DNA of 64,000 nt from Rugalucina vietnamica (Eukaryota > Mollusca > Bivalvia > Lucinida > Lucinidae). The notes below the pieces were generated by a model. It was not told the DNA's origin. It searched no databases and was given only the letters and a program-made list of their open reading frames with translations. The stretch covers positions 56,595,226 through 56,659,225 of the forward strand of contig OZ024871.1 in NCBI GenBank assembly GCA_964017185.1, read 5' to 3'. Of the stretch, positions 17,901 to 47,471 are shown in pieces (the stretch's first letter is position 1; every line of letters starts with the position of its first letter). Made by a program: the position numbers and the translations under genes.

Positions 17901-20900
17901 TCAGCAGATCAATCAATCCAGATGTCTTTGTGGACTACATTAAAAGAAACTCAGATCTTCGGAACACATGGTCTTCTTGTGTGGAGCAAATGCTCAAACG
18001 GCAAACTCGAGTGAAAGGGACTGTTTATAATGAATTACTAACCTATCTGCTCGCTAGTATTATATTAGACCCGCTTCTTATACCCTTCTTATTGAAATTA
18101 AACACATGTTTGTTGTCACTAACGAGCAAGTTACATCTATTTTCTAACTTTTAGACCATTATTGATAAAGATGGCATAGCAGAGTAGCGTGAGGAATCAT
18201 GAGTTATTTATTTGCAAAACCGAAGTCATGTAGTAAAATCAAAGTTAAAGTTTTTGTTTTCTTTTGTCTAAGTTGCTTTTTAACTATCAGATTTAGTTGC
18301 TGTTTAGACATATGAGCCAACTGCAAAGCAATCCACAAAATCGGCATTTGTATCTGAGAAAAAAAAAAGTGATAAGTGGCGAAAATGTATTTGATGATTT
18401 TTGTTAGATCAATATTGATGAATTATAAGAATAAAATTTGATATCACCAAGCTAAAACGCATTTTTGACATTCATGGAAGACTATATGCTGCCACAAGAA
18501 AGTTTTTTTTTAGCTTAAGTCAATGACCGAGAGCGTATATGTGTAAATGGAACGGACGAATATCTGTCCGAAACATATGAGCCTGTGTCAGTCTTGGATT
18601 GTTTTATTTAATGCAAATGCCTTTTTGTTGGAATTGCATTTAGTTACACCATTTTAGTAATAATTACATGTAGTTAATTAGATAATGGAATTTGAAATAT
18701 TATACATTAGTCACCTTCCATTTTCAGGGCTCCATAGGTATCAAAGGACAGACGGTAAGTGTGAAATCAAAAAACATCTTAAATGAGTGGTCCATGAGCT
18801 TTTGTATCCGTTTTAATTTTGGCGTTGAAATTCTCCTACACTGCAACACAGTCTGTGTTGAAGAGGAGGCTAGTAGAAACACATAAAAACCTGATTCGAA
18901 ACCTAATTCCGACAATAGCATTGTCTTGCAAGTTTTAGAGGAGAAAAAGAAGACACATTTATACTAAATACTTTCTACTATTACTCAATGATGGTTGGCT
19001 GTCTCACTGGATCTGGTTGATTGTTTGGTCTGCTGACAAACCACATAAAAGACAAAGCGTGTCATACAGTTACTATGCGGCTTCCGATACAACGTTTTAT
19101 TTTGCAGGGATCCTCAGGGCCAAAAGGGAGCAAAGGAGAGCAGGTAATTTTTGTCAGCTCATTGGGTAAATCATTTTTGTCAGCTCATTAGGTAAATTTG
19201 TTTGCCAGCTCATTGGGTAAATCATTTAACTAAAATTATGACCAAAGTTACGCAAAAGACCCTTGAGAATTCACAAAGCGTGTGCCTTGTGTGTATCTAT
19301 ATAGTTGTGTAAGGTTTATCTTCCGTGTGCATTTAAGCAAATGATGTTCACACTACAAGAGGTTTTGCATGTAATATTGAAATATTATGATGTTTGTTGT
19401 TTGTTTTTTCAGGTACGTGAATGTCCATAGTATTAAAGAATATTTAATTAAACGTACCTATGTAACCGACTGTTTTCATACGTTTTATTCTTTTAATAGT
19501 TTATTATAAAAGTATATATACGTTTGTAAAAACCTAGTATGAGATTTTGGTAATATACATCAAACATATATAAATTAATAGTATAGTATGAGATTTTGGT
19601 AATATACATATAAATTAATAGTATAGTATGAGATTTTATATAAATTAATAGTATAGTATGAGATTTTATATAAATTAATAGTATAGTATGAGATTTATAT
19701 AAATTAATAGTATAGTATGAGATTTTATATAAATTAATAGTATAGTATGAGATTTTATATAAATTAATAGTATAGTATGAGATTTTATATAAATTAATAG
19801 TATAGTATGAGATTTATATAAATTAATAGTATAGTATGAGATTTGTAAAAACCTATATAGCTAGAACGAAAGTATGCCAAACTATTTAATGTTATGTATA
19901 ATTTTGAATTTTCAGGGTAGCAATGGTGCTAAAGGTGACAAGGGTGAACCAGGACTGCCTGGCTATGATGGCTATGATGGCAAAGGAATAAAGGTGAGTA
20001 CACATGTAGTTATCAAAACTTAGATAGACAAAATTTGAGCCGCCTCGTGGGAAAACCAACAATGTGGCTTTTGAACAGGTCCGACACAAGTCAGGCTGTA
20101 CAGTCACAGAAGCAGGCTAGAAGCTTGAAATTTCGGATTTAAGAAGAAGAGGGATTATACTACCCGTGTAGCGAAAACAAAGGCGCTGATCAGCTTCGCG
20201 GTTACCGCGAAGCTGATCTGCGCCTTTGTTTTCGCCTATGCAGATTGTTGGTTTTCCCATGTGGTGGCTCAAATATACTATTATATCTCCATGTATTCTA
20301 CCAGCGCTGATATTTTGTCACCATTACAGAAACAATGGTTAAAGAATGATGTAAAGAATAATATGTACGTGAATGTCTTAAGGGGTTAATTACTATATCT
20401 CATTCGAAACGCATTTCGCGATGGGTAAAGTTATCTTCTCTTTTGAATTTGATGGGTGAGACGTAATGCCATCAATTTTATAAAGGATGCAATGACTGCC
20501 ATGTATGTCTGCTACCTACAATATCAACTGGAACAGATATACTTAGAAATATACGTATATACAATACGATAAAATTTAAATCGGAATGATAACTCAAAAA
20601 TCACCAATACGACAATAATGTTGCGGACTATAAACGAATGAAATTCCATTGTTTTGTTTCAAAACGGTTGTTCAAACAAGCCTTTCTAGACACGAGTATC
20701 ACCAATACATTACAATACAATACAATAATTGTATTGTTCGATCTCAAAGCATACATGAATGTCGCACCCTATGGGCGGTTTGCCTTTATTACGTCAGGAT
20801 GAACATTTGTCACCATCATGACAGGCATATGTACCAGCCGGGTTTCGAACCCGCAACCTCTTGATTGCTAAGCGAATACGCTATCCATTATCCTTATAAA

Positions 20901-26900: not shown

Positions 26901-29900
26901 GCTTCTTCTAGTGCTTAAAGACAATAAAACACATTGCATTGTACCTCTAGTTGTATGTTATATGTTGCATGTTTTCTGTTTTGCATGTTGCTAGGGTGAC
27001 CGCGGACCTCCAGGACTACCAGGTTATCTCGACCCTGTTGAATGGGAACCCAAACTGATAGAGGTCAAGGTATCCCATGATTTCTTTATTTTTGTACATG
27101 TTAAATTGAAGAAATATGATTCAATATTTATGAAAAGTTTGAGGTTGAATTTCTTTTAAACAAAGTTGAAGGTGAGCACTCTGCGAGATTTATCATAACC
27201 ATTTGAGTATAAAGCTTAGCAATATAAAGGACAACTATAATATATTTTGCGTATGTCAACGTAACGATTAGTTAAAGGTAGTTATAGTTACATACAGGAG
27301 AAAGCATTTCTGTTTTTCGATGATCAACATTACCTTCACTAGCATGTTGAGCGTCCTGGTTTCGTGGTTTGCATGTGTTAAGTCGTCATACAATTTTTCT
27401 ACCTGGGTTATTTTGTTTGCACGTTTGAACCACACTGTGAGCGAAATGAAAACAGTTTCGCCATTGAATGCATGTAGCACTTTATAAAAGACAAATGCCC
27501 AGCATCAGTGGCATTTTCGATCTTTTAAAAACTGTGTATTGTTTTAATAATTTCATTAGACGCTAGCAGTTCTAGCAAATATAACAATTTTAATTTAAAT
27601 ATCCTTTTCTTAGTTTTCAATTTATGCTTAACTATCGGCATAGAATGAATAATTTTAATACGTATTGTTATCCAATTATTTTAAATAATTTCTTGTTTGC
27701 ATTAAAACCTGGTACTTTATTCTTTTTGATTTGAGCATCACTATTTCAGGGTGAACCAGGTGAGCAGGGGCCTCGGGGACCCCCAGGACCCCCTGGTAAG
27801 GCTGGACTGCCAGGGTATGACGGATATGATGGCAAACTCGGGCCACCAGGACCAGCGGTAAGTCAGGGATAGGTACAAATGTCGTTATGTGTGTTATTCA
27901 TCAGAGAAAGGATACCAGAACAGTCAGATATAAGATTATGAATGTTTGAAATAAAATAAAACTGTTTGATCCGTTGTAAGCAGTGAAAACTATCAAAGGG
28001 AGGTAGTATGTGCCATATTGCGCAATTTCGGGAACTGAACCCTCATCAAGAAAAGGTAAATGTAATTCATTGCTAAGTAAAATTCTATAAAAGTTCAAAT
28101 GTTTGGGTTTTATGTTGAAACTATACGAATTATTTCATAACCTGTCCATTAAATACATAGTGAGGAATAATAAGAGGGTGGCCACTTTTGAAGTTTACGT
28201 TTCTAGCTAATATAATGTATACTTTTGACTCTTGATGGTAATCTTCTCTCTGTTTCAGGGACCACCTGGACCACCAGGACCACCGGTAAGCTATCTATGA
28301 AATTTAATTTCAGCGTCAACATTATTCCTCAAACCAACCAGAGCTAGCGTTTTTTATGTCATTTCGGACAATGCAAGTTCATAGAATATATACTTGACTT
28401 CGTAGCAACAGAAAACATCAGAATACATCAGAACAAAATATTTCACGAGAGATTTACAAGTAATCTATGATCCTCTGGTTAAATTGAGAAATATTGGAAA
28501 TAACCGTTGACCTTTGCATTAAGACATTTGACTTCTCTGTACAAATTGAATTAAGAAGAAACTATTAAATTTTAAGAATGTTATTTGCCAATCATACGGT
28601 TCCAGTCTATCAAAATGCAACAAGCAGTCAAGTTTGCTGTAAATCGAATTACATTTTTTCTACAATCACCTTCAAGCTAAAGAATAGTCAGTATCAAAAG
28701 ACAAAGTTCGGATATCAATGATTTACTTGTCAATTTCAGGGCAGAGATGGAATGCCAGGAGAACCGGTGAGTAACACCTTTAAACTAGATGAATAGAAAA
28801 CCAACAATATACCCGAATCTAAGCAAAATTCTATCAGCTCTAGTTTATGCAAACGGCGAAATCTGATCGGACATAGTGGACACCCGTATAGGCTTGGGGC
28901 TGCATTGTTGGTTTTTGTTCTTTGTTGTTTTATCATGCCTGTTGATGTTGATTGCAGTGTCATATGTCTTTGAGTTTTAAACATTAAGTGTATGAACGTT
29001 TGTCAGTAAATATATCGTATATTTGTCAGTGAATATAGTCTCGGATAATGCACACATTTTGATAAAATAATTAAATAATGTATAAATCAAATAACGAAAA
29101 TGGGAACGATACCCTTTGAGTTGTACACACATTTCATAGTTGTCACATACATGTTTGACGAAATCCGAAAGGCATACTTGCAGTCACGCAGTGTCCTAAT
29201 GCACTATTCAGAGGTATTCGATCGGTATTTATTTGTGCTGAGCATTGACCCATTTTCTTATAGAAAATACAAATGTACACATTTTTAAATATTTACTGAC
29301 ACATGAATATCCAATGAAATATACAAGGTAAATAACCAGCATTCTTAAAACAACTACACTGTTCTTGGATCTTGCCTTCCATGTTTTTCCAGACACATGG
29401 AATCGTACATTTATATCCGCCGTAAAGTCATTACGTGTAGTTATCCGATTGGTTGATTCCCGTCTTATAAAGTTATGCTCATTCGTGTCGCTGCCCATTT
29501 CGGAACACAATAACGTTTTCTAGTTAATCATTCCAAGCCAAGCTATGTTATATTTAGAAACGGTATTTGAATCTGAAAATGATCGTATTTCTCTGGTAGT
29601 TTGGTTTTGACAGTCCGGTCTGAAAATATGTGCATTTACACTTTTCGTTTTGCCTTGTAACTGGTATTAATATGTTTGACTTGATTCTTTCTGTCTTTCA
29701 TGAATTCGAGATTAACTGGAACGGACATTTCATTGAAATAGTCTCTTTCTTGGAAAATGCCACAGTGATTTCAGTTACGTTTGTAGTTAATATGTAAGCG
29801 TGCAAGTGCCTTATCATCCAATTCATGGTTTCAAGTTATGTTGTGAAGTTCCATTTTACCAGCAATGAAGAAAAAGAAAATAATTTCTTCATTTGCAACT

Positions 29901-31693
29901 TTGTCTTGTCTGTGTCACGTTTCTATTTCTACTCCCTATCTGAACAAACTTTGTCAGTATAGTTGGCCGCTTTTATTATGATTACTTTGATTTATGACCA
30001 TGAGATCATCCTTACTCGGGATCTCTTCTCTACTTGCTTTGATTTATCCGGCTATTGCTTTGGCCACTCTCTCCAACACCCCATTTCGAAACATAAAAAG
30101 CACACACGTATGCATACATACATACATGAATGGCATGGCCAAAACTGAATAACGCCAATATTGACTTTGAATATTTTAGAATCATACGAATGTCCGAAAA
30201 AGGGTTCCCTTTTTGGGATCTGGTTAAATTTGGTCTTGTCTAATGAAACTAATCATTTCAATCACTGTACAGCACCAAATAATCTTAACGATCATTGCTG
30301 CTATCAGGGAGAAACCGGTTTACCGGGACTGCCAGGGTCCTCAACCGGAACGCTTAGCTCGTCGGGGCAGGTGGCAAACCCCAACGAAAACTATCCAGCA
30401 GGATTTCTCCTCGGCCCACCTGGACCCCCGGGCCCGAAGGGTCAAAGAGGGAAGGCGGTAGGGTAGCGATATCAATGATATGTGATATCGGATGTCTTCG
30501 TTGTTTTCTTAAAATGATTGCTACTAACTTGTTGCAGTCACCACAGTTCGAAATTCATTTCTACATCCTACCTTTTGGACTTACTAATGTTACACAATTT
30601 TGCAATAATACAGCAATACGAAAACTGTATAAGTGCTGAAAGATATTTACATCCAAACCAAAAATAAACATCAAATGAATGTCGACGTTCTGTTGACTGC
30701 AACTTTTTTTCATTGTGACTGCAGCAAGTTTACAACAAAACGTATTATTATTGAAAAAATATTAAGGCAAAACGATTCACTAAGATAATAAGGTTTAAAT
30801 CCCGATACCTAGGCTGAGAGCCGTGAGAAAAAGCGGAGACGCTGTCGACTTGAGGTGATCCCCAGAAGGGAGCACAAAAAGCGCAAAAAAGGTTCGTCAC
30901 TAAAGAATGGCGATGATGATGACATAGAAAGTTATGATAATGAAGGAACTGAAGAGATGTTCGATGTGGAAGGTGGGACAGAGTATCAGGAGATACCCAT
31001 GATACCAGACGCAGCTTCCACTGGGACCACTGGTGTCCCATCGGAACATACAGACCCGGTAGTAAAGCGGAAAAGGCGAAATAGACGCAAAAATAAAAAA
31101 TACAAGATTTGTCCGCCAACAGACGAAGAAGAGAAGGCGATAGATGATTTATTAATGCGCGTTCCTCGACATATTATAGCTGGACCGCCGGTAACACCAG
31201 TGTATTGGACTAATTATGGAAATATATTGCTGCAGTCACAAAATGCTTCTTCCATTTATTATACCGGTATATCAACGGTCTTAACATTTCTCATGGTTTC
31301 AGGGTTAAAGTTCTTTATTCTGACATATAGACAAGTAGCCAGGATCTTCTACTAACCTATTAACATTAGTTTTATCATATTGATTTATCGATATTACGTT
31401 CGTGCGATTTTGCGATTTAGTATTGTTAAGATTTAGTATTAAAAATTGTGACAAACTTGTCATTTCATGATTTCATGAGAGTTCAAAATATTTTTAAAGT
31501 ATGTTGAAGCAATCCGTATAGCTTCTGCTCCACGAGAACCATGTTATCTGTCGTCCTAGTCCGACAATCGGGCTTTCGTTCCGTTCACTTCATTTATTTT
31601 GTTGGTCGTGAACTCCACTGACAAAGCTGGAGAGAATGGTACCCGGCTCGGAGGCGGCGGACGACTTGTAGATCTGCAGTTACTGTCGTCCAT

Positions 31694-31730
<37 letters not shown>

Positions 31731-34700
31731 GAGAGGAATTGAACCTCGGGTCCATGTTCCGTTTCGAGGGACTCTTTTTGGAGCACAATAATTAGAATTA
31801 TCTTAAAAACATTTAGAGAACTAGTGTATCATGCTTTAGAATGTCAGTCATAACACCTTTTATATGGCCATAAAATTAAAGTGCAGTATGAAGCTAAAAT
31901 GACGAGACTCTAAATTACGTTAAGTGCATACAAACAGTGCATATACTAACAGAGTACTCACGACCAGGACAGACCATGTAACAGCTTATATCATTATAAT
32001 CATAATCTAGATAAATGTATATTCTGTATCTCATAGAAGCAATAGACTAATAACAACGAATGCCAACTGAATATATTTTGAATTATTTTCCGAAATAGCT
32101 ACAAAACTTTACAGGAAAGCGAGGTGTTCATTTTCTCCATTTTATCATGCACAACTAAATGATTTATACAGGGGCCTACAGGTGATATTGGTTTACCAGG
32201 GCCGGAGGGGCCAATAGGACCTCGGGGGTTGAAAGGAGATGTGGGTATGCAAGGAATCAAAGGTGCCAGGGGGCCGCGTGGTAAGAAGGTAATTGGCTTT
32301 GCATATGTTGGTGTGTTGTAATTGTCTGTAGTGCTAGCTAGAATAGTATAATTTTGATTTCAATGTCATGTACATTAAATACTGACGTCAATAAAAAACG
32401 CCTCATCGAAAACTGTGTATAATTTTGCCAAAACATATACAATATGAACGAAATTTGCATTTTCTTATTTTAACGTTCTCTCTCATGGTATAGCATAAAC
32501 CGAATTTGGTTAAGATGCGCAATTTTCTCAAAACTTGCGTGGGTGCACCATTTTTAAAAATGCACGCTGACGTACTTATACAGACGTTTTTGACGTGAAA
32601 ATTCTTGAAAGCCTTGCAAAGTCGTTTTACAAACTTAAGAACATCACAGTTTTGAAACGAAACATTACTGGACTACGTGAAGTTGAAATAATGAAAATAA
32701 CATAGGGACTTTTCACAAGAAAGAAACAGACGGAACGAAAAAATGGTACTGTTCGGTTTCTGGCATTCGAAGCAACTCCATAGTATAGGACCATCTTTCG
32801 CTTCGGCATAAGATTCCCTCTATCGATTTTTGTTACCGTAGCTCTTTTGCCAACGCTTTTGTAGCAAAATCTTTTTGACGTCGACGTCTCTTATGCTAAC
32901 GAATTCTAATGATGAAACATTTCAGAAACGACGCCATAATATTTGGATGCATACCTTGAATTAATTTTCATAACGTAGTCGCATTATTTTAAATGAATAG
33001 CCAAGAATGGAGCAATGGTATTCTGACGCCTACTTCCATAGACGTCAAATACACGTTATCCGTAAGGACGTTGGTTTCACGCTGAAAAGCAGGAGAAGTA
33101 ACAATAGAAACTATTCTTTGCCAAAAGCCATACCACGATAGCCTTTGAAAACATTTCGACCAGTTTGACGGCGATTACAATTTAGGCATTGATCGTTAGC
33201 TTCAGTGACGTCAATAACGCTAGAGAACGGAATTCGGTTTTCAAAAAATGTGTTTCAACAACATATGGTTATGTATGGATTTCCCACTCTATGGCTTATG
33301 TGTTGGTATTTGCAAAGGAGGCTTTCAGTAATCGAAAGAAGCGATGCCTGACAGACCGGTTCATGACCAGAATAGGGATTTTGCGAGGGTGTATGTTTTC
33401 GACAGCATGCCATTTTTCAAGCAGCTGTCTGAATAATCCCATTTCAGCATTTCCGAATGCGTAAAAGGCTACCAAAAGATATGGCTAATATTTAAATTAA
33501 TTGAAGTAGTTAATCTTGGCAGTATGACGTGTCAAAGTTGACTGAGCGTTTTTTGTTGACGTCAGTATATATATTCAGTATATATATATCACAAAATTTC
33601 ATTAATGCTTGTGTAGTATCCATGCAAAATATCGAATACATAATGCATAAATATAAATGCTGAGATATGATAGAGGTTTCTTTAATAGCTGGATTCAACG
33701 TCTTCTTGCAACTCGAAATTTTCAAGTCGATTTGATTATTTAGATTTTAATTTTAAAAACATTTACCAGGGCAAGTGTAAAAAGAAGAAAGGTCGGAGAG
33801 GCCCTCCAGGTTTACCCGGCCCTATAGGGCCTCATGGAGAAATAGGCCCTCCAGGGCCACAGGTACGAACGTTTGAAAAATGTGTGCATTGTCTTGTTGT
33901 CTTGAAATAGTTTACTGCTTGGAGCTGATTGTTTGCATGAACATATATTTGTCTAGAATGTTTCATGTTCGGTGTGACGTGATTCACAGGTGATTCAAAA
34001 ATGTATAGAACTGACAAACAAATGATTTAAAATTTCAGTTTAAGCTTTTCCTCAAGAATAAAATGCGTTATGCGTGTACTGAAGATAATGTGCATGGTAG
34101 GCTAATACTGATTTATTTCAAACACAAGCTCACACTTTAGCACACTTTTTTGTTTTATTTTGTACAGGGGCCAAAAGGCGGACTTGGAAATACAGGAAAC
34201 ACCGGAGCCCCTGGTCCAATAGGGCCTGCTGTGAGTGTCATTTTAACTTCGCGGTATTGGATGTTAGCATTCAAGCAAATAGCTTTGAGGTTTTTGAAAT
34301 CATGTTTAGTTGCAATAGATTTCTACTGCTTCTCTTCTGGTTTTTGGCACAGTCCATCGAAAATCACGCAATTAAGTTGCTGAATGTATTCTTAGACCAT
34401 TGTTTTCAGCAAAGCTTTACAAAATATCGATTAGGAGGTAATTAATTAAAATCACGGTATTTTCATATCTATACGTTTATTTTATGCCACACCTTATCTC
34501 TTATCCCCCAGGGAGAGCCGGGCGAGAAAGGAGATGCTGGGCCGCCGGGACCAGTTGGACCTGACGGACTGATAGGACCACCGGGAATGCCAGGACCACC
34601 GGTAATTATTAGCGTCTTCATGATTTTTTTTTTCATGTGCATAAGCAAAGGCGCAGAAAGAGCTGTGGAGTAACTTTGCGTATGATAAGCACACTTGTTT

Positions 34701-37700
34701 TCGTTTCATTGTAAGAACATTCCCGCTATTTTAGAAATTTCAAGCTACTTCAACCATCTTCTGTGACAAACTTTTATATCATTTTGATAACATTTCATTT
34801 AATATAAGTATGAGCTAAACCCATTTAATGTCGGTATTTAGTTGTCGATGATTTTAAACGTAGCAGGTAAAAAGACATCTGAATGACAGAAAAGCTTGAT
34901 ATAAGCATGTTTCGCTATCATTCTTTCAGGGTGAAACAATAATAATGGAAGGTGGAGGAGGAAGTGGCGAAGGGGTGAGTGTTGTACGTATTTTATTATA
35001 TACAAATCACTTTTTCAAACTGAATCGTTAAATTGTCTTTGTATATACAACTACCAAAATATCTTATCAAGCGCCAAGGTAGGCAGGGAGTGGTGATACG
35101 GGGATAACGGTTAAGGGTATCATGTTGATGTAGATATTGTCTCTTTATACAGTGGATCTTGTAAACCATTGCAAGAATGAGTTAGTGTGTTAAATTGCGA
35201 TCAGACAGTTTATTCTCTTGAGAGCATTTCATATATAAAACATATTTATTTTATTGTAGCCTACTATTGTACGGGTGCGAATGTAAAACAAAACAAAATC
35301 ATGTTCCAATAATTCTGTTGTCGTCACCTTAATTAACACTTCTTACCTCAACCGATGGGTACATAAAAGCGATTAGGTATATGAAGTTCTCTTTGAAAAT
35401 ATATTTGATTTTTCAGTTTTTCATTATTTCAGCTTCCCGGACCGGCCGGACCACCAGGACCACCCGTAAGTACTTGTATTAACAGTTTTACCTGGATAAT
35501 TTATTTTTATACTGATGTCTCATAATTGTAAATAATAATAATATAAAAAAGATAATAAGCTGTTGAAGAAATACCATATGGATACATTATTCTCTGCAAA
35601 ATGTTTGTGAAACAAAACGTCTTGATGATTGCAGTAATTCATACTTAATGTAAACACCTTCGTTAAAAACTTACATATTACAGCCCCTTTCACTCGAGTT
35701 TGCCGTTTGAGCATTTGCATCACACAAGAAGACCATGTGTTCCGAAGATCTGAGTTTCTTTTCATGTTGTCCTCAAAGACATCTGGGTTAATTGATCTGC
35801 TTGTTTGAGTGACAGCTTCAAACTAAATGAGCTTTAAAAACGGCAAACTCGAGTGAAATTTTAACCTCCTATGTGGATTTTTTGCCATGAAGATACCGAT
35901 CAGGTAACTGCTTAAATTGATAAAATTCTGCTTTTCTCTCTATCCTCTTACAGATGTGTGTTCTCAATATGCATTGTATATGTTGTGCAAAGAATTTTGA
36001 TATAAAAATGTGCTTTAACCAAGCAATTACAATGTTTTTATCAGAAGAGGTGACATCTTTACCTACAGATAAATGCTGAATAGATTTTAAGAACATCTGG
36101 CACCTGGGACACTGTTTCAGTTTTAAAAAAGAATAAAAATATACCTGATTTACAAACAAACGGCAAACTCGAGTGAACAAATTTGATTGACCTTAATGCT
36201 CAAACGGCAAACTCGAGTGAAAGGGGCTGTATGTCACAACCTGAACCAAAGATTTTTTTTTTCAGTTTTGGTTTTCGCCATATTATATCTCTTTTCAATG
36301 TTATTCATGACAATGTTGAAGAGAAAGAGCATTAAGCATGCTATATAATTATCGTAAATTCAAAATTCTGTCATCAGGGACCGATGGGGTTGCAAGGACC
36401 TCCAGGAATAAAGGTATAGCATGGATAGTCTCAAACCGTAGCCTCTAACTAATATGCCTATTAGACAAAACTAACATCGGAATGATAAATCTCATTTTAA
36501 TTATAAAAAGTACTCACAGTCAGCAGAAAATAAATTTGACCTGGTAATGGGGTATGAAGTTTCTTTTCCTTTGGTGATTCTTAGAGGTTAGACTTACAAA
36601 TTGGCAGTATCAACACAGAACTCCCAACTATGACTATTACAAATATCCACCTGAACTACAGTTGAACAAAGCCAATATCTGAGATACCGAAGCCCCCTTT
36701 TTATATTTTACATCTTTCTGTTGCAAATGGATTTGTTTCTTCTAAAATTTATGATAAGCGCGATGACTTTGAGTTTGATATAGTAAATTTTCCGTTTTTG
36801 GGTGGTGACGTTCCACGTCGTGCTTCTTATGGTGTATACATTTCTCAGCTTATTAGGTTTGCTAGAGTCTGCAATCATGTTACGGACTTCATTGTTCAAC
36901 GCTCGAAATAAATGTCCAATAACGGCCAAACTTCTCCAACAGGGTTATCGGTATCATAAACTTCGAAAAGCATTTTCTAAATTTTATCGTAGACACTATG
37001 AATTGATTTCCAAATATAATATTGGGTTACAGACGCTTTTAGGTGAGGGTCTTTCGGAACCAGAATTTTATGGTGACTTGGTTTACAAATTTAAGAAACT
37101 TATAGGAGGGAATGATTTTTCTTTTCAGTTCAGAAAAATCATTGTACACGTTACAGACGTATAGGTTATAACTTGAATGTTATGCGACAGTCTGCATGCT
37201 TAGTTTTTAACCCAATCACGGTTGATAACTATACTGCCTTCTTTATTTACACGCCGGTGGGTCGGGCGTCAGACTCTATGATGGCCCCGACTTAAAGCTA
37301 TTCATTTTAGTTGGTTGGGGCCGGAGCTTCTTGTCTGTTGCTTGACCCACCGGGGTCCAACTGGTGTTTTTCTTTTGCTCCGGAGTTAGTAAGTTATTCG
37401 GCGCCAAGGGATCTCCATCGTCGGGCAGCTTACTGAATCTGTTAAGTCCTCGTTTTCGATTCATCAGGATGTTTATCATGATTTATCAGTTTGTTCTTGG
37501 TGATTCATTGACTAGTTAGAGATTCACCACGAGGAACGAAGAACTAAATAAATGTTATGAACCACTGCAGAAGCTGAGGGTGAGGTTAGGTACCTGTAAA
37601 ATCGGTTTAAGCCCGCCAGTAATTTTATATTACTGATCGTTCCAAGGCGATACTTCTGTGGTGGTTCTTTCTTTTTTGTCTTTGTGTTTAAATAATTTTT

Positions 37701-38080: not shown

Positions 38081-41000
38081 TAGAAATATCAAGGAATCAT
38101 AGTAATCACGCATTTCATGAGGTCTCAATCATTATCGATTATAACGTTGTCAATTACCAAATGGCTGAAGAAAGGTGATGGTTAACTATCATATTCCAAA
38201 GGTCAAGCATCTGTACTAACCTTACTCCGGACTATAACCATGCATTAACAGTCCTACTAAATGTATTAGTGAAAGGTCAAATGCGAGATTAACATAGTCA
38301 TAGCGTGTAGACTGGCATAATAATTTGTGGTCTGGGTCCACTCACACTGGATTCTTAAGTTTAGGTTGACTGTTTCAGATGCAGATTCTATAGAGGCATT
38401 TGTTGTACCCGTGTGTATTGAATGTATGACACCTACTGTATCAAAACGGTTCAGACATCAAAGGACTGTCATAATTAAGAAAATATATAATTATTATGTC
38501 CCAGCATGAGGTAACACATGAGCCCCTAAATGATAACACCTATGGAAACACTGTTTATTATATTCCGCCCCTTGTCAGTGATAAAATAATAGCCAATATA
38601 TAAAAATATAGACCTTTAAGCGAAGAACAATACTTGTGGGCCCATATCATTCTAAGATTCGCTCAACCTACAAGGTGATATCTCTTGCATGTTGTCTACA
38701 TGTTATGCAGACCCTACCTCATATTTTAAGCGAGTATTCCTGTGTGCAAAATTGTTAACGCATGTATGTCATGTATTAACATAAGTTTATAGTTTTAGCC
38801 TAGTACATGAATTTGCTTCCAGTGCTGTATAATAATCAAAAGTTAAGTGATGACCATTAATTGTTCTGTTCAAACTAGTGTCATTGTAGGAGTTTAAACT
38901 TCAAAATGAAATTACAGTTACCTTACAATTGCTGAGTAGTTCTTTTATTCTCATATACAGATGAAAACAGTGTAGACAGCTTATCAGAGAAGTGCCTTTG
39001 AACGAACATGTACTCATAACATGTTTTAAGTTTGGGGGATGGGAGGTTCATTTGTTATTCAAGTTTTGTCTGTCTGTTCCCCTTTAATTTGAACCTTACT
39101 ACTGGTTTTAAAGCCAACTTTTGTGTTTTGCAGGGCGAACGCGGAACTGCTGGTGCCAAGGGAGAACCTGTAAGTAAATATTATGTTTTCATTTCATTGT
39201 AAACGAATGAAAATACAAATTGGGGAAACCTTTGTGATAGTGTCCGATTATATTGCCTAAAAACAATTGTCTGGTGATTTTTGAAAATGGAAATGTGGCT
39301 TGGAACAATAGAGTTCCGTGCTTACGATCATCAGAGCATATTACCAGTATTTTACTGTTTAGATAATAGATTAATGCAGCAGCCCTGTCATAATACAATG
39401 TACATTTATATATAAAGGCACATGGAAGCTCGGTGCCAAACCCAACAAATAACGATGTCTGATGAGCAGTATTGACAATGTACTTATCAAATCCTGTTTT
39501 TTTTTGTTTTTTTTTTTTGTCTTACTAAAGTCTACTGTTTCAGGGTTCCAAAGGCGATGAAGGGGATTTTGGACCTATGGGCTTACCGGTAAGTCGTGGT
39601 TGTAGTTATTTAAATATCACTGCTATTTGTAAAAATGATAAAATAGGGCATGGCTATGCTAGCTACTGTAAACGCAATCAACTTCATGTTTAAGCCTTAT
39701 AAAGATTCGCTAGATGGCATCTCAAGCTTAGCCGTTTTCATTTGAGCTGATAGGGTATGTATTTGATGAAGGGTGATTTTCCTTTTTATTCACAAAACCG
39801 GTGTTGTTTTCACAAAATCTGGAAGCTGTACATAAGCATATGTTATAGTGGTGATTTTAATGTCTAGTTGAAATGGAAATTAGGAAATATGTAGACCTCC
39901 CTGGATATTTGTCCTAATTCTATGCATCAAATACACACCATATCATTTTTTTGGATTGTTTGGAATGGCAAAGCACAGCACAGCACAGCTGACTCCTCTT
40001 GACATAAGCACAGCTATGCTCACCATTGAACTACATAGGTTCCAAGTAGCTTAGATTAAAATAAATTTAGAGGTAGGCAGGCAGTCATTTGAAAGACAAC
40101 ATTATTTAATCTGGTTTTGGTTTTGTTTCGTTTATTTCATTAATTATTTGTTTCTTCTACCTTTTCTCTGGTTACATTTACACAATACCTAAATGAGCCT
40201 TTGAGTTAATCTTATATAGTGCACGATTCAATTCATCGCTTGCTATTTCACCTTTTAAACCATCATTTTATTACTTAGATTAATGAATGTGAATTATATT
40301 TCAAATTTAATTTTCCTTTTCATTTTCTTATTTACAAATTTCATTCTGTAAAATAATACATCGTAGTATGTCGCCCAACGAGTCGCTATTTGGCATATTT
40401 GTAGGGATTGCTTGGTCCAAAAGGAGATACGGGCGCCCCCGGGATTTCTGGAGAAATTGGCCCCATGGTGAGATACATTCCAATGCTTAAAGTCGTTCAT
40501 TTGCTGTTAAATAACATTTTATTTGCTGTGTATAGAGCTTTAAATGGACTGTAGTTATACTGAACAAAAGTAAAACATTTACAGTAATTTTTCAGCTACT
40601 GAATCTGAGTGAGGCTTCGCTAAACTTACAAAGATGGTATTTTGATGGGGTTGACAATAAAAATCTTTAGCCTGCAAGAACTACATGTATATACTGTTTT
40701 GTTGAAAGAAAGGAACTTAAAAAATACAATAACAGTGTTAAAAAGCCTATTGCAATGGGTGTATATCGTAGCGAACATCAGACATTTTCCGTCGGGGCGG
40801 GGCCATGCATTTATCTTTATTTCAATCAAGTAAAATATGTCGGGATGTAGTGTTTTTCAAACGCAGACGCTGAAAAAGTCAATACGCCAATTCCTTCTAA
40901 AATTTCAAGCTAAAGTGGCGCAACCTGTCTCATGATCGACAAAAACATCGAGTGACCATCATTCTCGTACCGAACCCAGACATTTTAGATCAAGCAACAT

Positions 41001-43598
41001 ACAGATGGAAAACAACATATTAAGTAATACACAATTACGACATAACGTATTATCCGAATAATCGCCACCGTGATAAGAACTGTCAGGTTCAAGCCAGTGT
41101 GTAAAATTTGGAAATTCTAAGTTGAGTATTCAAGATCGCCTTCTTTGTCTGAAAAACAAAAACGTAATGGCTACATTATTCGCATGTACAAAGCTGCTTT
41201 GGCCCGTACTACCTGTTTGAATCCAAATCACTTTCTATAAGCATGACATAGGACCAAATAACAACAAACCATGAAATGGCTTGATACATTTAATTGTCTA
41301 ACAACATGTTTGTCTGGCTAATATAATTTCTTCTTTCTTTATTTTAGATTGCATGGCATGTCGAGTTACCATGACGATGCGCTGGAAATACTGTTAAGAA
41401 CCGTTGGCTATTCATCAGATATGAACAAGCTTTCTGAATTTTGATTTGAACACACTCAAGCATGTATACATATTAGTCTATATTTCAGTTGGCATTCTAT
41501 GAAAATGAAATAAGAACATTATGTTGGTGTTAGCATATTCCACTCTACTTTTGCATGTTTATATCTTTCTGCTACTAATCTATGTATTGCATTGATTAAT
41601 TAATTCTGATTCTTATTATTGGACAATTCATATATGAATAAGTTTATGATGTTTACAGTTATAATATTTCAAACTCTGATTTACAACTTAATGCAATGTT
41701 TGGCTGTGGAGAAAAAAGAAAACTACCCAGTTCATTTGGTCGTTTTTCGATGAAAAGTAAGTAAGTAAGTAATGGTTTATTAAAGTGTCAAATATCAACG
41801 TCACAAATATACAACATAATTGTGGAAGACTTAAAGTTGATACCCAGCTAAATTTTGGCTTACGAGACACTGTTATTACATAAACGTATACATGGAAATG
41901 ACAAATACAAAGTAATAAGCCCTGTTCTGACACAGATCAGACATGGGCAACCATACATCTTATAGAACCACTGCTGCATCGACTACATGTGTTTGACGTT
42001 TAAACCGGACTGTTCGTTGTTGAAGTAAATAAAAAGGCAATCGCACCATTATTAAACGAATCAAAAATATACTAAACAGGGTTTCTTCTTTGAAACGTTT
42101 CTAATTTTGGAACACTAAACATAACTAAGACTAAGACAGGACACATTGACAGTATAATCGTATTCTTACATTGTAGTGCCTTGTTTTGAACATAAATTTT
42201 CATTTAAATAGAACTAAGTTCTGACAGTAGGTCCATTATCAAATTCAAAAACTCAAATTTCGCTTCTATTGTAGGGACCACCAGGACCTCCGGGGCCAAC
42301 ATTAGCTATCACAGGGGAAAACGGCTCTTGTACATGTCAGAAAGGAGAAAAGGGCGACAAGGGTGTCGCAGTAAGTAAACTTCAAACCTTTCAACTCATT
42401 TAAAACAGTAACAACAATCGACTCAATTTTTGTGAGTGAAAAAAGGTACAAGTAGGCAACGATCAGGAAAAGGCGCAATCAGAAAGAGATTTCTACTCCA
42501 AAAAATCGAGGTGGGAAATTATTCATGTAAGTTGCAAATTAGTTGTCATACAAAACGAGATAGAACTTGTTTTCACACAATACGATTTTACCAATTTTGT
42601 GTTGATTTGTGTATTGGTGGTGTCTTCCAAATGATAACCTTTTGACAGACTCTGCTTATTCGTAAAACAAGAGACATGTCTTGTTTTATTTTCCCTTTGA
42701 TTGAAAATAACTTACTTTAAGATTTTTTACAACAGGGTACAAAAGGGAAGCGTGGTAAGAGAGGCAGAAAGGGTGATAAAGGAGATGCGGTGAGTTGATC
42801 GTGTTCTATTTTAATTTATTGCGTTGCAAGCTACGAGTATACATATTTTATTTGCCTGATGCAGCCAAATCATAATGAGTGTATTTTACTATCATTCAGA
42901 TTATTTGTTTGTGTCCCAGATGTTTATTTTTCTCTCGATTTTGCATGCTAAAATATTATCTTTTATCATTATAATACCACCTGTTATACCCTGTTACATT
43001 TTCCCTCTTTCCATTCGTCCACTGACTGTTGGTTTCAGACACGATTGAAAATATTTAACACACAGTAATCTTTTAAAAATCAAGGGCAAAGCTGTGAATT
43101 TTGATGTAACCATGTAAGTAACCATAGTTTCATAAGTTGCTGTTGCTGTTAGGGTATACCCGGGCTTGACGCCCCGTGTCCTATCGGCGATAATGGTCTC
43201 CCTTTGCCTAACTGCTGGTCACCAGATAGTACAATTATACAGGTACAAGCACATGGAATGACTTGTGCAATTGTTACACTGCTTTGCATTGCACTTAGGA
43301 TGTCGAATGTTCAGCTTTCTGTTTTTCAGCGCTTTCTTGTGTTAATTTGTCATGCTCACGGCATGCATGATGCAGACTTTTTATCTACCATAAACGAGAG
43401 CCGTGTCTTACGTTACTAAAAGACACCGAGTGATAATTATTCGTCCAGGTAATACGTGCAGCCTTGACTATACCATGTATTATTTGTTTATTCTAGGGAA
43501 TTCCTGGGCGTGACTCCCCTTTGTTGTGTCCAAGAGGTGCCAATGGCGAGTTTGACTGCAGTTCTTTCAGTAATTTCGGAAATATGCGCAATCCATAA
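8938..43598 (+). CDS. Membrane-associated collagen (XIII/XXIII/XXV-like), 3' part, 29 exons
   Basis: Spliced gene, listed exon by exon below. Seen: 29 AG/GT-bounded exons in one orientation. All junctions inside the set are phase 0, most exons start with a glycine codon, and the exons join into about 699 residues ending in TAA. Most exons encode whole Gly-X-Y triplets; lengths of 27, 36, 45, 54, 63, 90 and 117 nt recur. Known: collagens XIII, XXIII and XXV are type II membrane proteins with interrupted triple helices and a C-terminal module of the form APCPxGxDGLPxxxCW, which is matched at 43153-43242. Inferred: a cell-surface or shed collagen in adhesion or matrix. The N-terminal cytoplasmic and membrane part is not found here, so the model is 5'-partial. 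Collagen-like non-fibrillar relatives are an alternative, but a fibrillar collagen is excluded by the absent C-propeptide and the many interruptions. Confidence 0.92.
9515..9541 (+). CDS. Collagen exon 2
   Basis: Acceptor TTTTCAG, donor GTATAC. 27 nt, three perfect triplets: GTRGDTGFP. Confidence 0.85.
10001..10596 (+). repeat. Two direct copies of a ~220-bp repeat in intron 2
   Basis: Segments 10001-10225 and about 10378-10596 share long stretches, e.g. ACAGGTATTCTCTTTAGC and TATAGGGTCACTGAAGAGGC, at a spacing of about 370 bp. A short related piece (GCCGAAACCATGGCATGGAC) occurs near 53667. No coding potential. Confidence 0.7.
11888..11923 (+). CDS. Collagen exon 3
   Basis: Acceptor TTTCCAG, donor GTATGA. 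36 nt, four triplets: [12 protein letters not shown]. It is rich in Phe in the X position, like exon 4. Confidence 0.85.
13283..15622. mobile_element. TIR DNA element, 2340 bp, TSD CTCCTT
   Basis: Ends GAGGGTCTGGATGGGG and CCCCATCCAGACCCTC. The flanking CTCCTT is duplicated (13277-13282, 15623-15628), and removing the insert restores the host repeat sequence seen at about 16107. Both ends hold AT-rich TTAATGAATAATG-type runs. No transposase was seen; it contains a captured or inserted LINE tail (14037-14369). Confidence 0.85.
14037..14369 (+). mobile_element. LINE RT C-terminal fragment inside the TIR element
   Basis: 110-codon open frame with [35 protein letters not shown] and [12 protein letters not shown]. 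This is the usual C-terminus of CR1/jockey-like reverse transcriptases. Catalytic RT motifs are absent, so it is only the tail; it is preceded by non-LINE DNA at about 14020. Confidence 0.8.
16986..17021 (+). CDS. Collagen exon 4
   Basis: Acceptor AATATAG, donor GTTCGT (a weaker donor). 36 nt, four triplets: [12 protein letters not shown]. It follows a 5 kb intron filled by the repeat at 12199-16556. Confidence 0.83.
17513..18024 (+). mobile_element. CTCGAG element, copy 1 (512 bp)
   Basis: Ends ACAGCCCCTTTCACTCGAG and its inverse CTCGAGTGAAAGGGACTGT. The motif TTCACTCGAGTTTGCCG recurs inside (near 17551 and 17848). No open frame of note. Copy 2 at 35690 has the opposite orientation. Confidence 0.8.
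18728..18754 (+). CDS. Collagen exon 5
   Basis: Acceptor TTTTCAG, donor GTAAGT. 27 nt: GSIGIKGQT, three triplets. Confidence 0.85.
19108..19143 (+). CDS. Collagen exon 6
   Basis: Acceptor TTTGCAG, donor GTAATT. 36 nt: [12 protein letters not shown], four triplets. Confidence 0.86.
19144..19232 (+). repeat. Short tandem repeat next to exon 6 donor
   Basis: Three imperfect copies of a unit near 29 bp with CAGCTCATTGGGTAAAT, starting a few bases after the exon 6 donor. Intronic. Confidence 0.7.
19560..19846 (+). repeat. 30-bp AT-rich minisatellite
   Basis: About nine copies of a 30-bp unit containing TATAGTATGAGATTTTATAT and AAATTAATA, with small length variants (29 bp, and a longer first unit). 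It lies 70 bp before exon 7. Confidence 0.9.
19916..19993 (+). CDS. Collagen exon 7, ends in GYDGYDGK
   Basis: Acceptor TTTTCAG, donor GTGAGT. 78 nt, 26 residues: five triplets ([15 protein letters not shown]), then [11 protein letters not shown], where one triplet is short (G-K-G). The [11 protein letters not shown] segment recurs in exon 11, pointing to an internal duplication. Confidence 0.9.
20036..20271 (+). mobile_element. Hairpin MITE, copy 2
   Basis: Same ends and central palindrome as copy 1, here in the intron after collagen exon 7. It contains the segment GGCGCTGATCAGCTTCGCGG and its inverse. Confidence 0.85.
20690..20892 (-). mobile_element. tRNA-derived SINE (probable)
   Basis: The minus strand reads AATGGATAGCGTATTCGC (A-box-like) and GGGTTCGAAACCCGGC (B-box-like) at tRNA spacing, and ends near a (TTGTA)n-type tail at about 20700. 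The anticodon stem does not pair, so it is not a working tRNA gene. Confidence 0.55.
21194..21259 (+). CDS. Collagen exon 8, non-collagenous interruption
   Basis: Acceptor TTCTGTAG, donor GTAATT. 66 nt, open in phase 0, with no Gly-X-Y: it starts [17 protein letters not shown] and ends IVNLQ. It is assigned to the gene because its phase, length and splice sites fit, and because exon 10 also holds a non-collagenous tail. Its inclusion in the mRNA is not proven. Confidence 0.6.
21621..21650 (+). CDS. Collagen exon 9, short interruption
   Basis: Acceptor ATTTTCAG, donor GTGGGA. 30 nt, reading [10 protein letters not shown] in phase 0. The ending resembles the exon 10 ending LIEVK. With exons 8 and 10 it would form a non-helical hinge of about 30 residues plus a second one after two triplets. 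The exon is short, so chance is not excluded. Confidence 0.55.
22370..23845. mobile_element. TATAGCCCCGC element carrying a 151-bp satellite
   Basis: Ends TATAGCCCCGCTT and AAGCGGGGCTATA. The left end itself forms a hairpin (TATAGCCCCGCTT ... AGTGGGGCTATA). After a TTCCG-rich start come about eight units of 151 bp (e.g. GACAAGATCTAGCTTGGGAT, CAATATCTTGAGAACGAATT) from about 22577 to 23790. Because 151 is not a multiple of 3, minus-strand frames run across units as overlapping spurious ORFs. Many bivalve genomes carry similar elements. Confidence 0.85.
23871..26756 (+). repeat. 455-bp tandem array, CACCTGAGC family
   Basis: Starts TTAGCTCACCTGAGCC and a CCGTCCGTCG run, ends CAGGTGAGCGTT...CCTCTGG. 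Marker TCTGAAACC occurs at 23991, 24446, 24901, 25356, 25811 and 26269, a period of 455 bp (458 for the last). The units at 24446 and 24901 look identical by eye and the first is nearly so, while the last two or three are diverged. Each unit has CACATGACCAAGATGGCCGC and CTTGACC/GGTCAAC motifs. Confidence 0.92.
26995..27069 (+). CDS. Collagen exon 10, triplets plus hinge
   Basis: Acceptor GTTGCTAG, donor GTATCC. 75 nt: [10 protein letters not shown], then a non-collagenous tail [15 protein letters not shown]. The tail interrupts the helix before exon 11. Confidence 0.9.
27750..27857 (+). CDS. Collagen exon 11
   Basis: Acceptor TATTTCAG, donor GTAAGT. 108 nt, twelve unbroken triplets, including [20 protein letters not shown]. 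The YDGYDGK part repeats exon 7. Confidence 0.94.
28259..28285 (+). CDS. Collagen exon 12
   Basis: Acceptor TGTTTCAG, donor GTAAGC. 27 nt: GPPGPPGPP, the most stable type of helix segment. Confidence 0.92.
28740..28766 (+). CDS. Collagen exon 13
   Basis: Acceptor AATTTCAG, donor GTGAGT. 27 nt: GRDGMPGEP, three triplets. Confidence 0.9.
30308..30457 (+). CDS. Collagen exon 14, with Ser/Thr-rich interruption
   Basis: Acceptor GCTATCAG, donor GTAGGG. 150 nt, 50 residues: [10 protein letters not shown], then about 21 residues rich in Ser, Thr and Asn ([20 protein letters not shown]), then [19 protein letters not shown]. The middle part breaks the helix and could carry O-glycans (inference). Confidence 0.92.
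30813..31190 (+). CDS. Collagen exon 15: 126-residue charged non-collagenous insert
   Basis: Acceptor GATACCTAG (weak pyrimidine tract), donor GTAACA. 378 nt, phase 0 at both ends. The last codons give AGPP, which joins exon 16 (GPTGD) in perfect register. Layout: basic cluster [10 protein letters not shown] and HKKRKK (residues 3-26); acidic stretch with DDDD and many Glu (33-60); a Pro/Thr/Ser part (63-83); a second basic cluster [14 protein letters not shown] (84-97); one Cys in ICPP; then an acidic DEEE segment; then IIAGPP. RKRR fits the furin consensus. Family members are known to be shed by furin, but close to the membrane rather than here. No homologue is recognised for the insert. 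Confidence 0.82.
31690..31726 (+). repeat. (CT)n microsatellite
   Basis: About 16 CT units in the intron after collagen exon 15. Confidence 0.9.
32172..32288 (+). CDS. Collagen exon 16
   Basis: Acceptor TTATACAG, donor GTAATT. 117 nt, thirteen perfect triplets, from [10 protein letters not shown] to GPRGKK. Confidence 0.94.
33770..33862 (+). CDS. Collagen exon 17, Cys and polybasic start
   Basis: Acceptor TTTACCAG, donor GTACGA. 93 nt: [17 protein letters not shown] and onwards, with one imperfect step in the GKCKKKK part. It continues the Lys-rich end of exon 16 (GKK). The Cys could form an interchain bond and the basic run could bind heparan sulfate (inference). Confidence 0.92.
34168..34230 (+). 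CDS. Collagen exon 18
   Basis: Acceptor TGTACAG, donor GTGAGT. 63 nt, seven perfect triplets: [20 protein letters not shown] then A. Confidence 0.93.
34512..34601 (+). CDS. Collagen exon 19
   Basis: Acceptor TCCCCCAG, donor GTAATT. 90 nt, ten perfect triplets, starting [17 protein letters not shown] and ending GPPGMPGPP. Confidence 0.94.
34930..34974 (+). CDS. Collagen exon 20, Gly-rich interruption
   Basis: Acceptor CTTTCAG, donor GTGAGT. 45 nt: [15 protein letters not shown]. It is non-helical and flexible. Its last Gly forms a triplet with LP at the start of exon 21, which supports this splice. Confidence 0.85.
35433..35465 (+). CDS. Collagen exon 21
   Basis: Acceptor TATTTCAG, donor GTAAGT. 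33 nt: [11 protein letters not shown]. It is the only helix exon that does not start with Gly; the glycine is supplied by exon 20. Confidence 0.88.
35690..36230 (-). mobile_element. CTCGAG element, copy 2 (541 bp)
   Basis: Inverted relative to copy 1: the ACAAACAAACGGCAAACTCG part lies at the right end. Ends ACAGCCCCTTTCACTCGAG and CTCGAGTGAAAGGGGCTGT are exact inverse copies. Both copies are preceded by TACATATT. Confidence 0.8.
36378..36413 (+). CDS. Collagen exon 22
   Basis: Acceptor GTCATCAG, donor GTATAG. 36 nt: [12 protein letters not shown], four triplets. It is followed by a 2.7 kb intron with a LINE 3' end. Confidence 0.9.
36740..37296 (+). mobile_element. Retroelement RT C-terminal relic
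   Basis: Motifs in order across frame changes: [69 protein letters not shown], then [13 protein letters not shown] and stop. These are the C-terminal part of an abundant bivalve RT gene of a non-LTR type (exact clade uncertain; a Penelope-like origin cannot be excluded). At least two frame changes. Confidence 0.75.
37297..38084 (+). mobile_element. 3' UTR of the same retroelement, ending in (TATT)n
   Basis: The segment with CCTATTGGGAAAATAGCTGC and TTTTCCCATCTCGGTTTTTG recurs at about 46795-46920 (plus) and 42430-42520 (minus), so it is a mobile 3' tail. It ends in eleven TATT units at 38038-38084. Confidence 0.7.
39134..39169 (+). CDS. Collagen exon 23
   Basis: Acceptor TTTTGCAG, donor GTAAGT. 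36 nt: [12 protein letters not shown], four triplets. Confidence 0.92.
39544..39588 (+). CDS. Collagen exon 24
   Basis: Acceptor GTTTCAG after a long T tract, donor GTAAGT. 45 nt: [15 protein letters not shown], five triplets. Confidence 0.92.
40405..40467 (+). CDS. Collagen exon 25
   Basis: Acceptor TTTGTAG, donor GTGAGA. 63 nt, seven triplets: [18 protein letters not shown] then GPM. Confidence 0.92.
42275..42370 (+). CDS. Collagen exon 26, CxC interruption
   Basis: Acceptor TATTGTAG, donor GTAAGT. 96 nt: GPPGPPGP, then TLAIT, then [19 protein letters not shown]. The CTC pair (Cys-Thr-Cys) lies in a short non-helical break and could link chains (inference). Confidence 0.92.
42430..42525 (-). 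mobile_element. 3'-tail fragment of the 37-kb retroelement
   Basis: Reverse complement of part of 37820-37910 (AGTAGGCAACGATCAGGAAA, then GGCGCAATCAGAAA). It lies 60 bp after collagen exon 26. Confidence 0.65.
42736..42789 (+). CDS. Collagen exon 27, very basic triplets
   Basis: Acceptor TACAACAG, donor GTGAGT. 54 nt, six triplets: [18 protein letters not shown]. Nine of eighteen residues are Lys, Arg or Asp. A glycosaminoglycan-binding role is an inference. Confidence 0.93.
43153..43242 (+). CDS. Collagen exon 28, C-terminal signature module
   Basis: Acceptor GCTGTTAG, donor GTACAA. 90 nt: GIPG, then [18 protein letters not shown], then SPDSTIIQ. The CPxG/GLPxPxCW pattern is the C-terminus of vertebrate collagens XIII, XXIII and XXV and is the main basis for the family call. 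In those proteins the chain ends a few residues after CW; here it is spliced on to another exon. Confidence 0.92.
43497..43598 (+). CDS. Collagen exon 29, terminal exon
   Basis: Acceptor TATTCTAG. 102 nt including [21 protein letters not shown], then [15 protein letters not shown] and stop. It begins like exon 28 (GIPG-D-P-C-P-G-NG) and has a second Cys in a similar place, so it looks like a diverged duplicate of the C-terminal module. Confidence 0.85.
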   Translation, partial: GIPGRDSPLLCPRGANGEFDCSSFSNFGNMRNP

Positions 43599-43934
43599 AT
43601 TTGTATTCTGTAAGTCGGTATACAGTTTAACAGTTGTAAGGTCAAACCAGCCTCTCTGTCCACATACCATTTCTATGTCCATCACAAACTTGAGCCTCGG
43701 AAAATTAACACTTGGGACCAGGACTATCCCGTGTATATTCATGATTAACTAAATTCACTATAGACGTTACGTTTATTTCTTTCCTGCTTGCTTGCTTCCG
43801 GCTGTTGTTAAACACGTTGTCACCTAGTCTTGATAAAAGGCCAAATACTAATAATGAGAACCTTTTTACTACTTTATAGGTTAAAACAGATAAAATTAAT
43901 CTGAGGATTATATTCAAACCACATGCACATCTTC

Positions 43935-44230
43935 GAAGCATGGTTAAGACATCTGTAAAGCTTCAAAAGAATCGGAATAAAACTGTAGGAGTTGTACACA
44001 CAAGGTACCCACTGTCCATTCACTTCCGCTCTCAAAATGCCCGAAAAATTACCAAGTTCAAATTGCGAAAAAGGTATCAAAAATCTGTAAAGTTTCAAAA
44101 GAATCGGAATAAAACTGTAGGAGGAGATGCGCACACAAGGTACATACTTCTATAGGGGGACGGAAGGACGGAAAGCCGAAAATTATGTCCCTCCGCTTTT
44201 CTTCGAAAAGGCGGGGGAGGGGGCAAAAAC
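43935..44230 (+). repeat. Dispersed repeat with duplicated 'GAATCGGAATAAAACTGTAG'
   Basis: The segment AAGAATCGGAATAAAACTGT occurs at about 43967 and 44098, followed by GGGGGACGGAAGGACGG and a hairpin-like CCCTCCGC...GGCGGGGGAGGG. It resembles a widespread bivalve repeat ending in a (GGAC)n tract. Confidence 0.65.
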
Positions 44231-44796: not shown

Positions 44797-44798
44797 GA

Positions 44799-44854
<56 letters not shown>
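44797..44854 (+). repeat. (CT)n microsatellite
   Basis: About 27 CT units with one TTT break. Arg/Glu-rich minus-strand frames through it are spurious. Confidence 0.92.
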
Positions 44855-44858
<4 letters not shown>

Positions 44859-47330: not shown

Positions 47331-47420
47331 CACTAATGCGCCGATGGGATTTCGACATAAATTATACTAAAAATAGCATTGTTTTGTTATAACTGTCGGT
47401 CCCTAAGTATCTGTAAGGAA

Positions 47421-47471
<51 letters not shown>

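Follow-up and report, generated by a model that had tools for sequence, protein, structure and literature searches.

Exon 15 of a mollusc gene that, judged from its sequence, is a complete collagen XIII/XXIII/XXV-type (MACIT) gene encodes a 126-residue charged block. We propose, with confidence and doubt in even balance, that this block is a charged hinge, open to proteases and optional in use, that joins the second collagenous region (COL2) to the third (COL3), and that pairing RNA elements may switch it in or out.

A complete MACIT gene in a mollusc

The window, a stretch of 64,000 nucleotides (56595226-56659225 of contig C3 in a genome of 1.09 Gb and 47 contigs), holds collagen Gly-X-Y exons bordered by AG and GT from 8938 to 42789, and the gene starts about 15 kb upstream of it with exon 1. 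The gene model, built from sequence alone, joins 28 exons into a single continuous frame of 766 residues. A scan of the upstream DNA for Gly-X-Y gave none there; exons 1 and 2 came from a transmembrane and CxC scan. A possible extra exon at 16629-16690 follows TATAG, has an unclear donor and was omitted from the model. The exons are as follows, in window positions except for exons 1 and 2.

contig C3 56580105-56580371 (+), upstream of the window: exon 1, from the transmembrane and CxC scan
contig C3 56584609-56584684 (+), upstream of the window: exon 2, from the same scan
8938-8972 (+): exon 3
9515-9541 (+): exon 4
11888-11923 (+): exon 5
16986-17021 (+): exon 6
18728-18754 (+): exon 7
19108-19143 (+): exon 8
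19916-19993 (+): exon 9
26995-27069 (+): exon 10
27750-27857 (+): exon 11
28259-28285 (+): exon 12
28740-28766 (+): exon 13
30308..30457 (+): exon 14, Ser/Thr-rich break, then further residues up to GKA
30813..31190 (+): exon 15, the charged block of 126 residues (336-461 of the protein), roughly where NC3 would be
32172..32288 (+): exon 16, where the third collagenous region begins, GPTGDIG...GKK
33770..33862 (+): exon 17, basic start of the third collagenous region
34168-34230 (+): exon 18
34512-34601 (+): exon 19
35433-35465 (+): exon 20
36378-36413 (+): exon 21
39134-39169 (+): exon 22
39544-39588 (+): exon 23
40405-40467 (+): exon 24
42275-42370 (+): exon 25
42736-42789 (+): exon 26, basic collagen stretch with RGKR near the C-terminus
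43153..43242 (+): exon 27, MACIT C-terminal motif
43497..43598 (+): exon 28, C-terminal extension ending MRNP and the stop codon

PMC4678570 names three marks of a MACIT: type II topology, an interrupted collagen ectodomain and a C-terminal motif with cysteines. The first-pass annotation had spoken of a membrane-type collagen, and this is borne out and extended to a full-length gene in which all three marks are found. Exon 1 encodes, in this order and all before the collagen, a short basic cytosolic N-terminus, a 20-residue hydrophobic segment (mean hydropathy 2.6, the topology being read from hydropathy only) and a heptad-like, coiled-coil-like stretch beginning YHKTVLTLQKRVETLELTVEQ (judged by eye). 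Collagen (PF01391) is the only Pfam family matched by the 766-residue protein, in three stretches with E 1.7e-59, and several interruptions lack Gly-X-Y. The C-terminal motif GLDAPC...CW lies in exon 27 with Cys 712 and Cys 724, 12 apart, as judged by eye against the human sequence, in which GLDAPC...CW is the C-terminal motif and CxCPxG the start of COL1. Exon 2 ends with LRRVVRQTKCDCPA, and a juxtamembrane furin-type motif, RVVR at residues 103-106, which satisfies minimal RXXR only, stands before CDCPAG. When the exon-27 peptide was searched against the genome it matched this gene only, apart from one match of E 2.96 that contains a stop; a single MACIT gene is therefore likely, as in other invertebrates.

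According to PMC4678570, many invertebrate MACITs are extended at the C-terminus by about 30 residues and have additional furin sites predicted in the ectodomain, collagen XIII and col-99 are alternatively spliced, and COL-99 has a C-terminal furin-type site, to which RGKR of exon 26 is comparable in place. In that 2015 survey no MACIT is recorded in Annelida or Mollusca, and a loss in Lophotrochozoa is inferred. That the DNA comes from a mollusc is supported by one test: of 147 distinct solved sequences matching a muscle myosin exon (60 of them listed), the best eight are entries for squid and scallop myosins, about 17 bits above the next.

Pfam searches on three read-through frames each of the + strand at 1-10001 and 42000-51999 returned nothing; this procedure is insensitive, as the second stretch holds collagen exons. 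Elsewhere in the window, an open frame at 55794-56381 matches RTP801_C (E 1.9e-32), a family that we take to be of the DDIT4/REDD1 type, and is probably the 3' exon of a neighbouring gene. By eye, a repeat of hairpin-type appearance occurs in two copies of opposite orientation (about 7140-7360 and 47740-47985), a satellite-like tract at about 45460-46180 is dense in variants of GTCGCGCGAC, and units like CCCGTTTCGCCTACT recur at about 50230-50610, with their reverse complement after them.

Exon 15 and its splice signals

We consider it very probable that exon 15 is a used exon. It is a single phase-0 exon of 126 codons with AG and GT at its borders, and its translation runs without a stop to ...RHIIAGPP. 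What had been described from the letters alone on sequence, register and neighbours is confirmed here: an in-phase block within one exon, two Lys/Arg clusters around an Asp/Glu stretch, a single Cys near each basic cluster (block residues 11 and 100), AGPP at the end, the Ser/Thr-rich break in exon 14, GKK in exon 16 and the continuation in exon 17. The statement that the block contains no Gly-X-Y at all is right for most of its length and fails for the last three residues, GPP, which form one Gly-X-Y triplet.

The strongest arguments for the exon come from its context, namely phase 0 at both ends, the continuous 766-residue frame and the opening of the frame exactly at an AG. The stop-to-stop frame starts exactly at 30813 and ends at 31355; it opens there because the acceptor TAG is itself an in-frame stop just upstream. 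Among exons 3 to 28, exon 3 alone starts out of phase 0, so that being in register is expected of any true exon here and adds little. In 40 order-3 simulations, 64 kb of sequence holds on average 3.55 open frames that are 126 codons or longer (0.125 for 180 codons or longer), and the openness of the block by itself is therefore modest evidence. The GC content of the block is 0.47, against 0.32 and 0.36 in its two introns. Synonymous codon use does not discriminate and gives the block no support as coding sequence: its score is -0.019 per codon, 244 out of 3278 non-coding stretches taken at random do as well or better, and the true frame of the block scores below its frame 1.

The two splice sites differ in quality. 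The donor, CCG/GTAACA, is good, in that 1.0% of the 3640 GT in the window equal or beat its score, and it ranks 14th of 27 in the gene. The acceptor is weak: 13.6% of all 3247 AG in the window score as well, and by leave-one-out score it is the lowest of the 27 in the gene, which might leave room for rare use of the exon. If exon 15 is skipped, the end of exon 14 (...GQRGKA) joins GPTGDIG... in an unbroken Gly-X-Y run into exon 16.

No second copy of the block was detected in the genome, either by protein search (E ≤ 0.001) or by DNA search (E ≤ 10), and the block has no Pfam match. Among viral contigs, 13 stretches fit a pattern made for relatives of the block and none was confirmed; among bacterial and archaeal genomes 117 fit and one was confirmed, in Microvirga lupini (match L009). 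This match (33% over residues 59-126) shares GVPSEHTD with the block and was taken as chance; the sequence around it resembles what we presume, by eye, to be a polyprenyl synthase.

Composition and predicted structure of the block

The elements of the block are, in order:

30828..30848 (+): KKRRRCR at block residues 6-12, the first basic cluster, which contains Cys 11 and the motif RRCR
30894..30998 (+): acidic stretch of net charge -12 at block residues 28-62
31065..31100 (+): second basic cluster, block residues 85-96, with overlapping furin-type motifs RKRR and RNRR
31110..31112 (+): Cys 100 of the block, which comes after the furin-type motifs and shortly ahead of the predicted helix
31122..31160 (+): predicted helix, block residues 104-116, from the AlphaFold model; candidate NC3 trimerisation helix

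With 29 K+R and 26 D+E in 126 residues the net charge is +3, and along the chain it is patterned as +10, -12, -3, +11 and -3. The clustering of K/R (11 in 14) is exceptional, being reached in 1 of 5000 shuffles; that of D/E is not unusual (329 of 5000). Five of the nine RXXR motifs of the whole protein fall in the block, as do two of its three canonical R-X-[KR]-R motifs, the overlapping RKRR and RNRR; the third, RGKR, lies within Gly-X-Y of exon 26. Matches to XBBXBX occur at protein residues 429 and 498.

Apart from one short helix the block is predicted to be mostly disordered. The AlphaFold model (mean pLDDT 64.5), made with no alignment, has a helix at block residues 104-116 as its one structural element, and RKRR and RNRR lie where it shows no structure. 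The furin-type motifs precede both Cys 100 and the helix, so a cut at the motifs would keep these two on the COL3 side. Basic residues directly after furin motifs, here NR and KN, may hinder cleavage.

Position relative to NC3

From the end of the block to GLDAPC there are 245 residues. Vertebrate COL3 is about 236 residues long and vertebrate NC3 about 20-25; because the two COL3 lengths are near each other, the block would lie about where NC3 does. By position, therefore, we place it tentatively at about NC3, between COL2 and COL3; the break in exon 14 is close by and provides a second candidate for that position. The earlier remark that no such domain is known in collagens XIII, XXIII or XXV stands in part: the place is probably not new, being about that of NC3, while the length and composition do differ.

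The sequence comparisons with NC3 used the letters of human XIII, XXIII and XXV, and they suggest a weak similarity of the block end to human NC3. Ungapped, the last 17 block residues score 3 and 7 against NC3 of XIII and XXV (743 and 157 of 20000 shuffles reach these values), and the exon-14 break scores 2 and -5 over 16 residues. Against both, the block end is outscored by windows elsewhere in the protein, the best of which, at 10 and 15, are in the NC1 region. When a COL-99 peptide was compared with the whole protein, its five best windows all lay outside the block, though the peptide matches human NC3 well. Local alignments that include the following collagen give the block 59 vs 47 for exon 14 with XIII and 74 vs 65 with XXV; with XXIII, exon 14 is slightly ahead (55 vs 52).

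Complementary elements in the introns around exon 15

Three elements related by reverse complementarity surround exon 15:

30526..30541 (+): element A, intron 14, forms a 16-bp helix with B, with one G-U
30713..30730 (+): element B, intron 14, able to pair with A or with C, not with both
31227..31241 (+): element C, intron 15, reverse-complementary to part of B over 15 nt with no mismatch

The arms that face each other across the exon, 30713-30727 and 31227-31241, are perfectly complementary over 15 nt. This is the longest such complement across the 24 internal exons of the gene (the next is 13), and of 3000 simulated intron pairs one had a complement as long; for A:B, 16 bp was reached in none of 300 simulations and 15 in two of 300. 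The two helices exclude each other and are nearly equal in duplex energy (-27.3 and -27.1). In the full fold B:C is almost wholly displaced by A:B, with 15.4 expected pairs for A:B vs 0.0007 for B:C, so that, if the pairings act, inclusion should be the default.

Exact matches to the 15-mer TTGCTGCAGTCACAA and the 16-mer AACTTGYTGCAGTCAC occur twice each in the genome, and all four places are elements A, B and C, which makes the arrangement look like a local inverted set and not a dispersed repeat. The same patterns read backward, as controls, gave 0 and 1 matches, and a hand estimate from base composition puts the number of 15-mer copies expected by chance at one or two. With up to three mismatches the 15-mer has six matches in the window (1.88 expected; 3 of 100 shuffles have as many). 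The total cross-intron duplex energy around exon 15 is ordinary, with 116 of 300 shuffles as low, and the B:C arms, one of 17 inverted pairs listed in 3.7 kb, belong to a set that was found by looking. A longer hairpin, of 37 bp, occurs in one other intron (35466-36377, at most one G-U) out of the 17 that measure 1100 nt or less. Intron 16 contains a 26-nt inverted repeat of 92% identity (32376-32401 and 33546-33571).

The weakest acceptor of the gene, the unbroken Gly-X-Y run on skipping and the three surrounding elements together give a hint that exon 15 may be used optionally. PMC8330042 describes short perfect complements (7 and 13 nt) between the introns that flank skipped exons of C. elegans zip-2, and reports that deleting them sharply lowers both skipping and back-splicing.

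Proposed mechanism and alternatives

Starting from the gene structure, the MACIT marks, the motifs and the sequence complementarity, all read directly in the DNA, we infer a mechanism in which the block would be an enlarged, mostly disordered, charge-patterned hinge that lies about where vertebrates have NC3 and joins the second and third collagenous regions. With exon 15 included, the chain would bear the overlapping furin-type motifs RKRR and RNRR, and a proprotein convertase acting at the block could set COL3 free in a step apart from the shedding of the ectodomain at the juxtamembrane RVVR; the Cys and the short acidic-hydrophobic helix after the motifs might hold or re-nucleate the COL3 trimer. 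With exon 15 skipped, GKA would join GPT, and the triple helix would run on unbroken and without RKRR/RNRR. Pairing of B with A inside intron 14 would favour inclusion, and pairing of B with C across exon 15 would favour skipping or circularisation. A sharper version, which we offer as speculation and regard as doubtful, has a bistable RNA pairing in the mollusc MACIT choose between an unbroken membrane rod and a convertase-cut charged hinge from which a soluble, trimeric COL3 could go on to act as a ligand.

The main rival, which is compatible with a hinge, takes the block for a constitutive glycan-binding module: its basic clusters, together with those of exons 16-17, would attach to sulfated glycans of the cell surface, such as heparan sulfate, with the acidic stretch tuning or masking the clusters, and neither cleavage nor regulated skipping would be involved. 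The patterned charge, the exceptional K/R clustering and the two XBBXBX matches suit such a module, as does the binding of collagen XIII to heparin, which appears by title among the references of PMC7848082. However, the furin-type motifs, the weak acceptor and the flanking complementary elements would go unexplained, the acidic stretch nearly neutralises the block, and its D/E clustering is ordinary; we hold this explanation possible but rather unlikely. That the block is not normally used, being either an open frame that arose by chance or a cryptic exon that is seldom recognised, in an intron that joins exon 14 to exon 16, would agree with the weakest of 27 acceptors, the frequency of open frames of this length in simulation and the uninformative codon use. 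It is made improbable by a usable AG exactly where the frame begins, phase 0 on either side, a donor among the best 1.0% of GT, a GC content above that of the introns, and a content (furin-type motifs, Cys, helix) that suits an NC3 site.

Two further explanations carry very little weight with us. Exon 15 could be an alternative last exon or part of a retained intron: reading would then pass 31190 to the stop at 31353-31355, and the chain would end before COL3 with an added tail whose hydrophobic run might insert into a membrane. The 54 further open codons at 31191-31352 and the hydrophobic run (seen by eye) allow this, but the donor at 31190 is good and the tail lacks the C-terminal motif that defines MACITs; the synonymous codon score of the tail, -0.019, is the same as that of the block and decides nothing. 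We rate this explanation as highly improbable. The inverted repeats on both sides of exon 15 might instead recall a mobile element or a copied protein segment inserted into the gene, an origin that is very hard to credit and that we disfavour, as protein and DNA searches of the genome found no second copy of the block, no further exact copy of the repeat arms was found there, and the block has no Pfam match.

The reading of the block as an optional hinge has consequences of its own. It predicts a second, internal shedding step that releases COL3; for COL-99 an internal site of comparable kind is predicted, its use being unproven. The three-element arrangement would make the control of this step testable through one short intronic sequence, and the whole, if true, would be an RNA-switched collagen shed in two steps. 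Worms and mammals both show a link between MACITs and the neuromuscular junction, and the mollusc gene therefore adds a third large animal branch in which this role can be tested. The complete gene also contradicts, for molluscs, the model of MACIT loss in Lophotrochozoa given in PMC4678570.

Comparison with known systems

A literature search, with most subscription journals outside its scope, had no report of a mollusc MACIT among the matches listed. As far as these searches show, three things are new within the literature covered: a full-length MACIT in a mollusc, a block at the NC3 position with this size and pattern of charge (other invertebrate MACITs being compared by text description only), and the three-element arrangement around exon 15. 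Competing intron pairings are familiar from the docking and selector sites of Dscam. The likeness lies in one arm that has two possible partners of nearly equal energy; the difference is that Dscam has mutually exclusive exons, whereas a single cassette exon is concerned here. C. elegans zip-2, as described in PMC8330042, likewise has a short perfect complement across a skipped stretch (13 nt, against 15 nt here). Unlike in zip-2, a third element competes for the same arm in our gene, where skipping or circularisation of exon 15 is a prediction from sequence.

As a protein, the gene product resembles vertebrate XIII, XXIII and XXV in its predicted type II topology, juxtamembrane convertase motif, CxCPxG start of COL1 and GLDAPC...CW and, less certainly, in a coiled-coil-like stretch after the transmembrane segment and an interruption at about NC3, while the length of vertebrate NC3 given above contrasts with 126 residues here. 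The MACIT family is already known, and so are internal furin sites predicted in the ectodomains of invertebrate MACITs (PMC4678570), so that the idea of cleavage has a precedent. In the same source, no additional furin sites are predicted in the ectodomains of mammals and the vertebrate MACITs have no C-terminal extension, whereas the mollusc protein has RKRR/RNRR in its block and does carry such an extension. It is the invertebrate MACITs described there, C. elegans COL-99 and Drosophila CG43342, that resemble it in these respects, with an apparently single gene, a C-terminal extension, extra furin-type motifs in the ectodomain and multiple interruptions.
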